DNA of 20,032 nt from IMG/VR virus record IMGVR_UViG_3300025128_000467, positions 1 through 20,032 of that record; one strand, 5' to 3'. The notes beneath the pieces are model-generated. The model was not told where the DNA came from. It saw nothing but the letters and a program-made list of their open reading frames with translations, and made no database searches. A program made the position numbers and the translations under genes. This stretch comes from a virus. Of the stretch, positions 14,339 through 18,033 are shown one piece after another; the stretch's first letter is position 1, and every line of letters begins with the position of its first letter.

Positions 14339-14734
14339 ATGTCAGATGAAACTAATACCCAAATCATAGAATTGCTCAGGGAGATCCGTGATCTTCTCAA
14401 GCAACGTCCTGTATCTTCCCAGGGTTCCAGCCAAAGCCAAGGCGAGGCACCTGCTAAACAGTATCAAAACGAAACGGGTCAATGGGTATGGCAGTTACCC
14501 AAAGGACAGAAACCCAGCAGCTGTCGCTATTGTCAACAAGATATCTTCTGGGTCAAGTCTAAAAAAGGTAAAAACGTACCATGTGACGCAAATGGTCTTT
14601 GCCACTATGAGACTTGTCCTGATAAGAAAGACAAGAACAAGAAACCTTTTGTACCTATGCCTCGACAAGTTAAATCTGTTGGTGATGGAGTATCAGACGT
14701 AATGGCTGATCTAGAAGATAAGGTTCCTTTTTAG
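14339..14734 (+). CDS. Zinc-finger protein with SSB-like acidic tip
   Basis: 131 aa; ATG 14339-14341 preceded by an AAAGGGGGG ribosome site. Residues 5-22 form a short amphipathic helix (NTQIIELLREIRDLLKQ), probably for oligomerisation, followed by a Gln/Ser linker. Residues 62-93 form a likely zinc site (CRYCQQDIFWV, then a Cys at 82, CHYETC at 88-93); the layout 'C..C...i.w....gk..p.d..g..H...Cp' recurs in small phage proteins. It ends DLEDKVPF, an acidic stretch plus Pro-Phe like the C-terminal tip of bacterial SSB that recruits replication proteins. First gene after the strong early promoter. Suggested role: ssDNA or replisome interaction; this is inference. Confidence 0.7.
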   Translation: MSDETNTQIIELLREIRDLLKQRPVSSQGSSQSQGEAPAKQYQNETGQWVWQLPKGQKPSSCRYCQQDIFWVKSKKGKNVPCDANGLCHYETCPDKKDKNKKPFVPMPRQVKSVGDGVSDVMADLEDKVPF

Positions 14735-14865: not shown

Positions 14866-14923
14866 CCCCCCTCCTAGTAAACCTGTTTTTCTTCTATGTC
14901 AAGAAAAATGGGGGGAGGGGGGG
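14866..14923 (+). other. Nested hairpin: C6TCC ... TTTTTCTT/AAGAAAAA ... G6AG7
   Basis: TTTTTCTT (14886-14893) and AAGAAAAA (14901-14908) are perfectly complementary with a 7-base loop. Outside them CCCCCCTCC (14866-14874) can pair with GGAGGGGGG within 14914-14922. G7 is followed by TTTT only, so terminator function is uncertain. The two G-runs could also take part in a G-quadruplex. Confidence 0.5.
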
Positions 14924-14973
14924 TTTTGAGTGGAATCAAGAATCTAACCAATCTTGGGCGATGATGAACTACA

Positions 14974-15288
14974 TTGAAACAAAACAGAAAAGATCCTCTA
15001 CCTCAGAAGATAGTAGTAATAGTCTGGAAAGACATTATCTCTAGAGCAGATTGGGTAGGGACTATTTCAGAAATAAAAGAAGAAATGGAACCAATGTCTT
15101 GTGTCTCTGTTGGCTGGATTGTCGAGAAAACAAAAGAAAAAATTACTATAGCAGACTCCTTTACAGAAGATCATAACTTTGGAGGAGTAACTTCTATACC
15201 CCTTGATGTAGTTGAAGAGATTTATGTACTTGACTCTAAATCTCCTATAAAGTATATCAAGGATAAGCCGCAAGAAAAAAAAAGTTAG
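14974..15288 (+). CDS. Small conserved-looking phage protein, 104 aa
   Basis: 104 aa if started at TTG 14974. The core IVVIVWKDIISRADWVGTIS, then SVGWIVEKTKEKITIADSF and SIPLDVVEEIYVL follow a pattern common among short phage early proteins ('v.W.D..s...W....e....svG.l......itia.s......g...IP...i..i..L'), function unknown. The start is poor: no ATG in frame before 15085, no clear ribosome site, and stops at 14959-14964. An ATGATG at 14961 lies in another frame that would join this one by a +1 shift in the A-rich stretch near 14980-14991. A base error or shift there is possible. The C-terminus is Lys-rich (KDKPQEKKS). Confidence 0.65.
   Translation: MKQNRKDPLPQKIVVIVWKDIISRADWVGTISEIKEEMEPMSCVSVGWIVEKTKEKITIADSFTEDHNFGGVTSIPLDVVEEIYVLDSKSPIKYIKDKPQEKKS
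15230..15258 (+). promoter_or_regulatory. Possible sigma70 promoter inside the 104-aa gene
   Basis: TTGACT (15230-15235), exactly 17 bases, TATATC (15253-15258), about 40 bases before the next start. Five and four of six matches in an AT-rich coding region, so chance is not excluded. Confidence 0.25.
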
Positions 15289-15298
15289 GGGACTAGTT

Positions 15299-15556
15299 AT
15301 GAACTCGGTAATAGAAATATTAATTGAAAAAAATCCAGAAGCAGTGATACTTGTAGGATTTGATGATTGTCTTATAGGTACTACTTGTACTTGTGGAGGA
15401 TTACCAGTTGCTATATATTCTACCAACATGATAATTGAAAAACTCATAGATAGAGGTCTAGATGAAGATGATGCATGGACTCATTACTATCATGAGATCG
15501 AAATGGTTAATCTAGGAAAGCACACTCCTCAAATGCTCAACCTAGATCTAGAGTAA
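15299..15556 (+). CDS. Conserved-type small phage protein, 85 aa
   Basis: 85 aa; ATG 15299-15301 with AGGGG about nine bases upstream, ten bases after the preceding stop. The sequence EAVILVGFDDCLIGTT, then VAIYSTNMIIEKLIDRGLDE and AWTHYYHEIE, then GKHTPQML follows a pattern widespread in phages ('alilDGfdeAiiGi...g.....vYd...ii..L....m..eeA.ey...N......g..TP'). No catalytic role is known to me. It is followed at once by a strong terminator, so it closes this early transcript. Confidence 0.75.
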   Translation: MNSVIEILIEKNPEAVILVGFDDCLIGTTCTCGGLPVAIYSTNMIIEKLIDRGLDEDDAWTHYYHEIEMVNLGKHTPQMLNLDLE

Positions 15557-15566
15557 CCCCTTTTAG

Positions 15567-15612
15567 CCGGTCCCTAGTTTCCTGGGTTATTAGGGGCCGG
15601 TTTATTATTTTT
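15567..15612 (+). terminator. Rho-independent terminator after the 85-aa gene
   Basis: CCGGTCCCTA (15567-15576) pairs with TAGGGGCCGG (15591-15600), ten pairs with one G-U, a 14-base loop, followed by TTTATTATTTTT (15601-15612). It separates the first rightward operon from the GC-richer island. Confidence 0.85.
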
Positions 15613-15656
15613 CATTGTGGATGTGGGATATATATACCCTCCGGCTCACTCGCATT

Positions 15657-15673
15657 GGGGGGCTCCACCCCCC
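15657..15673. other. Perfect G6-CTCCA-C6 hairpin
   Basis: GGGGGG at 15657-15662 and CCCCCC at 15668-15673 surround a five-base loop. It is followed by the tandem TCGCTCGCTC. Not followed by a T-run, so not a terminator. Confidence 0.6.
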
Positions 15674-15947
15674 TCGCTCGCTCACCTACGGAAACACCAA
15701 GCGCACCAGCAGGACCAAAATCCTTAGCCAATCGGACCAAGAACGCAAACGCAAACTCACATTGCACTGGGGGGGGGCCTAATCTCTATTTTGTATACGG
15801 GCGTGATCAACAAGACTCCCTCACATCATATACACTGTAGGTAGTATTACCCTTTCCTGCTTCGTAGTGCGTTATACAACTGCAATATTGAACTGAGAAT
15901 ATAACAGCCTCTGTTGCCGCCCTCGTCTACCAAGACCCTAACCATAC

Positions 15948-15971
15948 GGGGTGATAGGGACAAGTCACCCC
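15948..15971. other. Perfect 7-bp hairpin GGGGTGA/TCACCCC with a competing stem
   Basis: GGGGTGA (15948-15954) and TCACCCC (15965-15971) enclose a ten-base loop. The loop TAGGG can instead pair with CCCTA at 15936-15940, so two exclusive folds exist. A second GGGGTGA at 16405-16411 could also pair with this TCACCCC. Confidence 0.55.
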
Positions 15972-16093
15972 ACTCGCTACGCTCGTACCCTCCGGGGGCC
16001 AGCAACAAAACAATAACGGGTCGCAAGCGACAAGTATTTTCAAGGGAGGCTGGTCCACCCTTCCCTCTGATTCAAGTATGGTCTTGACCTTGC

Positions 16094-16187
16094 GGGGGAT
16101 CGGCCACTGCGGAGCCAAAAGGGTCCGTCTGGAGCCGGGTCAAGCCCGGAACAGGACTCTTTTGCTCCTTGCTAGGCCAGATCCTCC
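16094..16187 (+). ncRNA. Candidate 94-nt rod-shaped structured RNA or DNA element
   Basis: Three nested stems. Outer: GGGGGATCGGCC (16094-16105) with GGCCAGATCCTCC (16175-16187), twelve pairs with one bulge and one G-U. Middle: GGAGCCAAAAGGGTCC (16111-16126) with GGACTCTTTTGCTCC (16154-16168), fifteen pairs with one bulge and one G-U. Inner: CCGGG-TCAAG-CCCGG (16135-16149). The inner arm resembles a tRNA T-arm, but the loop has only five bases and the other arms do not fit a cloverleaf. No known RNA family recognised. Confidence 0.5.
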
Positions 16188-16274
16188 TCGGTCAATCCTC
16201 ATACGAATCATTCACCCTCTCCTTCTCACTGCATGTTCGTTCAGGGCGAGCATTATATCACCCAATGTTCTACC

Positions 16275-16370
16275 GAAGAGTCAAGTCCGCTTTTTTAAAA
16301 CTATTTTCTAGTCGGCAACACGGGAAAATACTTTTAAAAAATACCCCTAACGGGGCTCCCTTGACTCTTC
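16275..16370. ncRNA. Candidate three-way structured element with 11-bp and 18-bp inverted repeats
   Basis: GAAGAGTCAAG (16275-16285) is perfectly complementary to CTTGACTCTTC (16360-16370). Inside, 16291-16308 and 16324-16341 are complementary at 17 of 18 positions with a 15-base loop; this arm is almost wholly A/T (TTTTTTAAAA against TTTTAAAAAA). A third hairpin CCCC-TAAC-GGGG lies at 16344-16355. An AT-rich hairpin inside a GC-rich frame suits either an RNA junction or a DNA-unwinding origin element. Confidence 0.55.
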
Positions 16371-16436
16371 TCCCTCTATTTGCTGCCGAAAGTCTACTGG
16401 TACCGGGGTGATAGCAATGGGAAGGAGTATTTAAAT

Positions 16437-16517
16437 CAGTGTGTGCCGCAAGTCTCCTCAACACCAAGTCGGTAGTTGGACAAGGCACTCTTGGGACACT
16501 GAACTCGCTTTTTTTTT
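16437..16517 (+). other. Stem-loop followed by T9, possible terminator upstream of the orphan gene
   Basis: CAGTGT (16437-16442) pairs with ACACTG (16496-16501), GTGCC (16443-16447) with GGCAC (16484-16488), and CCAA (16464-16467) with TTGG (16476-16479). A run of nine T lies at 16509-16517, seven bases after the stem, a little far for a classical terminator. Confidence 0.4.
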
Positions 16518-16532
16518 GCCCACACGTTGGGC
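16518..16532. other. Hairpin GCCCA-CACGT-TGGGC 15 bases before the orphan gene
   Basis: Perfect 5-bp stem with a five-base loop directly after T9 and just before the start codon region at 16548. It could limit ribosome access or serve as a protein-binding site. Confidence 0.4.
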
Positions 16533-16547
16533 TTGAATGGATACACA

Positions 16548-17252
16548 ATGACTGAAACACAGTACACACCTGCGGAGATCGCAGAGATGGCTGCAAAACT
16601 TGACGAATACGAGCGCACCCTTGCGGGACAGATCGGCACTCCTCCAGCACTAGCACCGCTGGTGAAGCTACCCACCTGGATTTACCCGCTTGGCTACGGA
16701 GACTTCCTCCAAGCTAGCGCAGTACAAGAAATCTGTGACCGGATCACAAACAGAGAGCACGTACTCCTGATCAGCTTTGGTGCGGATAAAGACATGATTG
16801 GACCCAAAAAAGGTCAAGGTCGCCAGACCACAGAGATCAGGCAGTTCATGAAAGATCTCCCAACTGCCCGAGAGCACGACAAAGGAACTTTCTCATACCA
16901 CAATGCAACACAAAGCATTACGGAAATCACCGGAGGCATGGCGATCAACGACACCAGCGGTAACGCAGTCGCTCACCAGCAAGCACGTTGGGTAAATAAC
17001 CTCTCAATGTCTTGCGACCACCTGGTCGAGCTCGTGTGTGAATATCGCACAATCGAAGGTATCACCCAGGCAGGTTACAAAGAACGTTTCAAAGAAATTG
17101 ACTATATCACCCAAGCATTTGCACAACGGATCGCACCAGTGGTACCCGAAACCACACCCGGTCCGGTCGGCAAAGACTTTGGACAAAAGATCGTTGGTAC
17201 GCTCCCTCATGAGAGAGATCTCAACACTGACGGAGACGCACTACCGTTCTAA
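16548..17252 (+). CDS. Orphan protein in the GC-rich island, SSB-like C-terminal tip
   Basis: 234 aa from ATG 16548-16550; a TTG at 16527 would add seven residues. Only a weak TGGA lies upstream, unlike the strong ribosome sites elsewhere. Family not recognised. The N-terminus is helical (YTPAEIAEMAAKLDEYERTL), then PTWIYPLGYGDF, a mixed segment (VLLISFGADKDMIG, FSYHNATQSITEITGG), a helical stretch (VNNLSMSCDHLVELVCEYRT), and a Pro/Gly linker (VVPETTPGPVG). It ends DLNTDGDALPF, closely like bacterial SSB acidic tips. Codon use favours G and C more than neighbouring genes, suggesting a different origin. A role in ssDNA binding or replisome recruitment is inferred from the tip alone. Confidence 0.7.
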   Translation: MTETQYTPAEIAEMAAKLDEYERTLAGQIGTPPALAPLVKLPTWIYPLGYGDFLQASAVQEICDRITNREHVLLISFGADKDMIGPKKGQGRQTTEIRQFMKDLPTAREHDKGTFSYHNATQSITEITGGMAINDTSGNAVAHQQARWVNNLSMSCDHLVELVCEYRTIEGITQAGYKERFKEIDYITQAFAQRIAPVVPETTPGPVGKDFGQKIVGTLPHERDLNTDGDALPF

Positions 17253-17253
17253 C

Positions 17254-17349
17254 TTGACAGCAAAGACCTACAGGTAACGCTCAAGCCCTGCCTAAGAGAC
17301 TGGCGAATATGGTGAGAGTCTTTAAAGATTACCTCGTAGTAGTCACTGC
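17254..17349 (+). other. Short structured 3' region before the terminator
   Basis: 97 bases without a gene. Small stems CAGG/CCTG (17271-17274 with 17287-17290) and AGACT/AGTCT around 17297-17322. A TTGACA at 17254-17259 has no -10 partner at proper distance. Probably the 3' untranslated part of the orphan gene transcript. Confidence 0.35.
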
Positions 17350-17387
17350 AAGCTCCAGGTTCCTCGCGGGATCTGGAGCTTTTTTTT
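17350..17387 (+). terminator. Strong rho-independent terminator after the orphan gene
   Basis: AAGCTCCAG (17350-17358) and CTGGAGCTT (17373-17381) form a perfect nine-pair stem with an internal TTCC/GGGA extension, followed by eight T (17380-17387). Confidence 0.9.
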
Positions 17388-17745
17388 ATGCTATACGTCA
17401 ACAGCAAGACCAACCCCCAACACACCGCCCCAACCTCACGGATCGAAACTCCAGAATGGATATCTGCTCTGGCATCGCAACATCAATACAACTATCTGCT
17501 AACGCACCACAAACAGAAGTCCGGCATTGTACTGAACCAGCACTGGTGGTAAAGGGACAGTGCCTGACCAACAGAAAAAAAACCTGCGTTTCCGGTAGGT
17601 ATCCGCTCTCTTGTTTCTTTTTTTTCTGTCGGTGCCCAGCCCCCCCACTACGTGGTCTTGGCGAAGTGCCCTTGACTCACCAGTGCAGGTCCAGTGGGCC
17701 GGGGGTGTGATGAGGACAGAAGAATAGAAAAGAAAGGATAGAGGA
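17388..17745 (+). other. 358-base noncoding region with nested inverted repeats (right half of the island)
   Basis: No well-supported gene. A 54-codon frame at 17388-17552 has no ribosome site and begins inside the T-run of the terminator. From 17540 to 17686 long inverted repeats dominate. C7 lies at 17640-17646, and CCCTTGACTC at 17669-17678 repeats 16358-16367. The last 30 bases are purine-rich and carry the ribosome site of the next gene. Confidence 0.5.
17540..17686 (+). ncRNA. Candidate structured element: 9-bp outer and 12-bp inner stems
   Basis: GCACTGGTG (17540-17548) is complementary to CACCAGTGC (17678-17686). Inside, ACAGAAAAAAAA (17571-17582) is perfectly complementary to TTTTTTTTCTGT (17618-17629) with a 35-base loop, and CCAC-TAC-GTGG (17646-17656) forms a hairpin. 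Competing local stems exist: ACCAG/CTGGT at 17536-17547 and GCACTG/CAGTGC at 17540-17563. Like 16275-16370, it combines an A/T arm with a GC-rich frame. Confidence 0.45.
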
Positions 17746-18033
17746 ATGACAGTATCGAGAAAGACTCAAGTAAAGAAAGACCTTGAGAAATCAAGAGGCA
17801 TAGAGATTGTGGATTTGAAAATCGTTAAGGGACCATTCGATTTCGACGTGGCGATGTCATTAGGTTTCGAGATTAATAGTAGTTGGGACATGTGGGGCAA
17901 CGGCCACACTGGAGCAGTACTGGGTAGCGAAACAGAAATGATTGTTGAGCCATACCCTAGTCACAACCCTGATGGTGGAAGAAACAATGTTAATCCAAAA
18001 GAGTGGTTGATTATTCTCAGGAAGAAACAATAA
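17746..18033 (+). CDS. Hypothetical small early protein, 95 aa
   Basis: 95 aa; ATG 17746-17748 with AAGGA eight bases upstream. No family recognised. A basic N-terminus (MTVSRKTQVKKDLEKSRG) is followed by a compact mixed region with several aromatic residues (SWDMWGNGHTGAVLG) and a closing strand EWLIILRKKQ. It is the first gene after the island, and base composition returns to that of the other rightward genes. No promoter was seen directly upstream. Confidence 0.65.
   Translation: MTVSRKTQVKKDLEKSRGIEIVDLKIVKGPFDFDVAMSLGFEINSSWDMWGNGHTGAVLGSETEMIVEPYPSHNPDGGRNNVNPKEWLIILRKKQ

Follow-up and report, generated by a model that had tools for sequence, protein, structure and literature searches.

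A GC-rich, hairpin-dense island around an orphan gene occupies a conserved early-gene slot in a group of uncultured podoviruses

What is a GC-rich, hairpin-dense island around an orphan gene doing among the early genes of a podovirus? The island lies at 15613-17745 of the window, by which we mean the whole stretch of DNA analysed here (an entire IMG/VR record, 20,032 bases), whose terminase, head-tail connector and major capsid matches are those of a podovirus. Up to about 14.3 kb the genes lie on the − strand and beyond that point on the + strand, and the island sits within the early, + strand part. An earlier note had offered a large structured phage RNA, an origin region or an acquired cassette as readings of it. 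Its description of the composition was borne out: sliding GC is 0.49-0.53 over 15500-17750 versus 0.35-0.42 directly to the left and 0.33-0.42 further right, and the two noncoding parts, 15613-16547 (935 nt) and 17253-17745 (493 nt), flank a single ORF and total about 1.4 kb, where about 1.3 kb had been claimed. The short repeats said to link these parts were each found twice (TACCCTCCGG near 15635 and 15985, CGGGGTGATAG near 15948 and 16404, and CCCTTGACTC near 16358 and 17669), and both of the proposed terminators are visible (Table 1). The inner one was recovered by a terminator scan, which misses the left-hand stem because its loop is long. A sigma-70 promoter scan stayed at chance level. 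Likenesses to group I/II introns, a cobalamin riboswitch and a tRNA arm, seen by eye, were dropped; no model matched.

Table 1. Positions of the features in and next to the island, in window coordinates.
Feature	Position	Strand	Basis
Terminator-like hairpin, end of upstream gene unit	15557..15607	+	CCGGTCCCTA/TAGGGGCCGG stem; recurs in L002 and L039 with compensating changes
Single-copy conserved motif YGTGGATGYSGGATATATA, presumed promoter or other control site	15616..15636	+	same place in all readable relatives
GGGGGG-CTCCA-CCCCCC hairpin, about 20 nt 3' of motif	15657..15673	+	equal distance in every class
Long folded noncoding leader	15637..16547	+	folding z; compensated pairs between window and L002
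Stem GAAGAGTCAAG...CTTGACTCTTC around AAAACTTTT module (16286-16346)	16275..16370	+	sequence; module model R2
Orphan gene, 234 aa, ATG start; alternative TTG start at 16527 possible	16548..17252	+	L002 homologue, 36%
Intrinsic terminator 3' of orphan gene	17350..17389	+	terminator scan; compensated T-C/A-G change in L002
Conserved folded stretch, terminator to next early gene	17476..17745	+	77.5% identical to L002, long invariant blocks
Hairpin module closed by GTAAA...TTGAC, A.G mismatch	17549..17676	+	9 island hits across the group

The packed inverted repeats are as the earlier note described them. In the left noncoding part, no dinucleotide-controlled shuffle folded as well as the native sequence on either strand (z = −3.8 for + and −4.2 for −); folding of the right part was weaker (z = −1.9). 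When the 20-kb window was folded in 200-nt steps, the lowest value (z = −5.1 at 16001) fell inside the island, as did further low values at 16201 (−3.0), 16801 (−4.4) and 17201 (−2.7), and one coding step upstream of the island was also low (−4.0 at 15201). The window ORF is more structured than its synonymous-codon shuffles (z = −3.8), no more so than the first 702 bases of TerL (−3.3), and control genes had some + strand structure too.

We collected relatives at 21 loci via TerL, and the neighbouring 104-aa gene added two contigs. The DNA 3' of a conserved 85-aa gene could be read in the window (W), L002, L003, the L006 group, L008/L012, L013/L014, L022, L015 and L039. In every one of these an island occupies the same slot, and the islands fall into at least seven classes. 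Each opens with GTGGATGYSGGATATATA and has a G-run/C-run hairpin some 20 nt further on. Folded noncoding DNA then extends for about 600-1250 nt up to an ORF of 128-234 aa, which is followed by a terminator and a second folded noncoding part; ordinary AT-rich early genes lie 3' of the latter. The motif was present once per contig in the eight contigs tested, and a scan of 2.9 million viral contigs found it in 15, every one from this group. An intact protein gene across the whole region, which the earlier note had named as the outcome that would speak against it, was not found in the relatives. No fold or alignable sequence common to all classes was found either, and pieces of 66-105 bp with 84-90% identity are common to otherwise unalignable islands. 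Together, these comparisons support a conserved early-gene slot in an uncultured podovirus group, the cargo of which appears to have been exchanged, or to have diverged beyond recognition, between classes.

Several further observations concern the genomes around this slot. The phage collection contains no close isolated phage (the best isolated-phage TerL is about 35% identical), and a search for the host by TerL alignment gave no match among 84,980 genomes. A more distant contig, L018 (TerL 70%), has a hairpin-rich noncoding stretch at the corresponding place (L018:7150-8000, −), with the motif absent. One 105-bp piece, 84% identical between L006:1027-1130 (−) and L008:3632-3735 (−), carries the tRNA T-arm-like string GGGTTCTGTTCGAATCCAGG. 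The 34.7-kb relative L034/L035 encodes a RecE-like exonuclease and RecT (L034:16020-18000, +), an ArdC-like antirestriction protein (L034:10826-11818, +) and an HTH regulator; no polymerase, primase, RNA polymerase or initiator was found among the proteins scanned in it. In the window, positions 1-1700 are a Ser/Glu/Ala-rich low-complexity coding stretch (TESEADAES repeats) adjoining the tail/capsid genes, and relatives' contigs break in the matching part of the genome. Another GC-rich inverted stretch, CCCCCCTCCTAGTAAACC...TGTCAAGAAAAATGGGGGGAGGGGGG at 14866-14926, lies 5' of the 104-aa gene and contains GTAAA and GTCAA strings resembling those of the island modules described below. The early protein encoded at 14339-14734 (+) is zinc-ribbon-like, and in every class its homologues terminate in SSB-type tails (KVPF, EDIPF, DDVPF, EEVPF and others), which suggests a phage mimic of the SSB C-terminus.

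The ORF within the island is coding but fast-evolving. Its dN/dS between L013 and L022 was 0.39, versus 0.04-0.07 for two neighbours, and island ORFs have a GC3 of 0.53-0.64 versus 0.22-0.27 in the window neighbours. Between classes, the ORFs are related only for W and L002 (36%) and for L013 and L022 (87%), the others having no detectable similarity. The gene was rightly called an orphan, since the 234-aa protein had no family match above the cut-off (Pfam included) and no relative in phages or viral contigs besides the L002 protein. It also has no Shine-Dalgarno sequence, in line with the little Shine-Dalgarno signal noted before. The window protein ends in DALPF and its L002 homologue in DEVPF, both SSB-like tails. 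The predicted structure suggests an alpha/beta fold with low confidence (pLDDT 54), and fold searches with this model brought up nothing beyond generic nucleotide-binding folds, the best of them at E 0.009; we therefore assigned it no function. A model of the L013 ORF product (pLDDT 36) was useless and was dropped.

Dense structure was present in all eight of the islands folded, and its form differed between classes. L013 and L022 fold into a rod of about 1.3 kb (nt 44-1368 from the motif) that holds the ORF (about 834-1219) in its 3' arm, and shuffling the ORF codons alone costs the L013 rod more than 120 kcal/mol (z = −9.2). This fold is absent from the other classes and from the window, which is no more than moderately structured. 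In L003, local hairpins run through the ORF beyond what the protein needs (codon-shuffle z = −11.7 and −9.7 on the two strands). Exceptional structure within the ORF is thus a property of L003 and L013/L022, not of the window. We considered whether the L013 rod was an amplification or assembly artefact and rejected this, the same imperfect covarying rod being present in three contigs from three metagenomes (L013, L014 and L022).

Two small hairpin modules turn up in islands that are otherwise unrelated. The first is closed by GTAAA...TTGAC and always contains an A.G mismatch; it is found once in W, L002, L003, L008 and L015 and twice in each of L013 and L022. All nine island hits are on the + strand, against 0.4 hits expected from shuffled sequence over everything scanned, and a single hit outside any island looks like chance. 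Six versions of this module gave a covarying model, and the CCCTTGACTC repeat is part of it. The other is the AAAACTTTT stem, in which a C.C mismatch is constant and the loop is conserved; its model R2 also matches L003, L015 and L008. By their fixed orientation, these modules show that part of the island structure apparently works on one strand. They lie upstream of the ORF or of the downstream operon, and a role as RNA in expression is therefore likely.

For the bulk of the structure, we compared how pairs had changed between related islands. Among Watson-Crick pairs of the L013/L022 rod that had changed on both sides, 22 were still paired and 3 were not, against about 1.5 compensated pairs expected by chance (derived from the single-change rate by simple arithmetic). 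W 15613-16257 can be aligned with L002, and a GU-free consensus fold of these two islands gave 25 compensated pairs on the left and 12 on the right, counts that lean upward because the consensus fold was chosen to pair. The covariation that the earlier note had proposed to look for in homologous loci is thus present in both comparisons. The compensated changes were clustered (P 0.008), in a test that, like that for compensation, covers one sequence pair, L013/L022, these being the only two distinct L013-class members found. Some of them alter two positions of one codon and change the amino acid.

An RNA acting on one strand is expected to show more G.U than A.C mismatches. G.T and A.C were instead nearly equal in the L013 rods (18 vs. 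17), among new single changes between L013 and L022 (14 vs. 13) and in the pool of seven islands (69 vs. 69). As positive controls for this count, GU-free rRNA folding was uninformative and the BLAST method gave no long rRNA stems, so the strand difference in folding energy was used as the control; its mean was about zero in the islands and it was negative in 13 of 14 rRNA control windows. The right part of the W/L002 fold was slightly better on the + strand. Clustered compensated changes together with strand symmetry would fit arm-to-arm copying of DNA better than slow RNA compensation. Mutations that extend the identity between the arms of quasi-palindromes are documented in yeast under high transcription (PMC3820800), and we infer that template switching of this kind is the agent behind the maintained pairing. 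The islands resemble those hot spots in their clustered, pairing-preserving changes on both arms (22 versus 3, P 0.008, in one pair) and in the strand symmetry of their mismatches, as expected of such a process. They differ in scale, the known cases being short and seen in reporter assays, whereas here the copying would extend across 0.1-1.3 kb, gene included, and would stay at one place in the phage genome.

The reading that we favour, with somewhat less than even confidence, is that the locus is a conserved slot for early expression, in which the leaders are folded, the cargo can be exchanged and the palindromes are kept largely by arm-to-arm copying at the DNA level. Transcription would probably start at the motif, directly after the upstream terminator, and would yield a leader with strong folding and, after it, a single accessory protein that evolves rapidly and probably has an anti-host role. 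A terminator would come next, and then a second folded leader carrying the GTAAA/TTGAC module ahead of the downstream early operon. Sequence and cargo would turn over quickly between phages while the frame of motif, G-hairpin, folded leader, ORF, terminator and module-bearing leader stays. In an imperfect hairpin, one arm may be copied into the other during replication or repair by quasi-palindrome template switching, so that pairing would survive as sequence drifts; a role as RNA, such as one in processing, stability or read-through, would be likeliest for the small strand-fixed modules. Phages also have variable slots for accessory genes, which are anti-defence or early host-takeover loci. 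The island is like them in its conserved flanks and control site and its exchangeable, fast-evolving small ORFs, but it is saturated with palindromes on both sides of the ORF and, in some members, through it.

An improbable variant of this reading would make the island a diversification element that needs no reverse transcriptase, the inverted noncoding arm being copied into the coding arm and back, so that anti-host codons are rewritten in templated blocks while the hairpin is kept. Diversity-generating retroelements combine a reverse transcriptase, adenine-specific mutation and a direct template repeat. The likeness is that a noncoding copy beside a variable gene could template its rewriting; in the island, however, the copy is inverted and the changes are of several kinds, not adenine-specific, and no reverse transcriptase was found among the early proteins scanned.

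It seems rather unlikely that the island is instead a single large functional RNA, or a structured bifunctional mRNA, on which selection acts through the fold of its + strand, the ORF being a component of it or carried along in it. Strong folding, compensated changes, + strand-fixed modules and the invariant blocks shared by W and L002 all favour such an RNA, and the compensated pairing and strand-consistent small modules are what survives of the corresponding proposal in the earlier note. Against it, the bulk of the pairing prefers neither G.U over A.C nor one strand in folding energy, the classes share no fold or alignable sequence, and the Rfam covariance search that the note had suggested gave no match at gathering in the window and seven relatives, and nothing credible at E up to 10. 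GOLLD and ROOL are RNAs of phages and prophages (PMC12286853); like them, the island is phage-encoded, several hundred nt long and very rich in predicted structure. It differs from them in having no covariance-model match, a protein gene in its middle, bulk pairing with no strand preference and no structure common to all islands; those RNAs also often lie near tRNA genes, of which the 20-kb window has none. Stems of GOLLD and ROOL covary across members; in the islands, covariation is seen in modules and in pairs of relatives. Obelisks (PMC11922315, PMC13096302) come to mind for the rod of about 1.3 kb with an ORF in one arm in L013/L022. They are RNA replicons encoding Oblin, whereas the island lies in a DNA phage genome, its ORF has no Pfam match, its mismatches are strand-symmetric, and most islands, the window's included, are not rods.

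We consider it unlikely that the island is a replication origin, or a region single-stranded at some stage, in which the DNA hairpins are functional and the ORF secondary. Strand-symmetric palindromes at a single fixed locus would suit this, as would RecE/RecT with no replisome genes among the scanned early proteins of the relative, a gene set with which a host-dependent origin would be compatible. Cumulative GC skew turns at about 17750, although both gene orientation and the composition of the island itself confound this turn. Yet no iterated initiator-binding sites were found in the island, the structure runs through a coding, exchangeable ORF, and the modules are fixed in orientation. Less probable still is a cassette that came from donors richer in GC, bringing its hairpins with it, and was replaced separately in every phage lineage. 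Raised GC and GC3, unrelated ORFs between classes and the short shared pieces point that way; but motif, G-hairpin, layout and raised GC are common to all islands, so that these do not represent a series of independent donors; an ongoing process is needed for the pairing to be maintained, and no donor was found in phages or viral contigs. Of the acquired cassette, then, the cargo slot with exchanged ORFs holds up and a single recent acquisition does not. We give hardly any credence to unremarkable, fast-evolving intergenic DNA that folds through high GC and a few terminators. The weak right part of the window and an ORF no more structured than TerL would agree with it; the comparative results disfavour it, with z of −4 to −5 against dinucleotide-controlled shuffles on the left and far lower values in relatives, the conserved motif and modules, and the compensation. 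Judged from its sequence, the island belongs to no known family of giant RNAs and is not ordinary intergenic DNA either, and we file it as a combination of two known kinds, the folded phage leader with variable cargo and quasi-palindrome evolution.

These results also carry a caution: a functional RNA is usually recognised by good folding and compensatory changes, and both can arise where no selection acts on RNA from one strand; the strand-symmetry test separates such selection from upkeep of pairing at the DNA level. Keeping hairpins mostly as DNA and not as one fixed RNA would, if the favoured reading is true, be an uncommon mode of evolution for a region that contains a gene. A whole phage group would then have a fixed slot whose palindromes are renewed as DNA, in some members across a protein gene. 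Such a slot would let template-switch evolution be studied comparatively in a natural system, and would be a promising spot to search for new anti-host proteins that lack sequence relatives.
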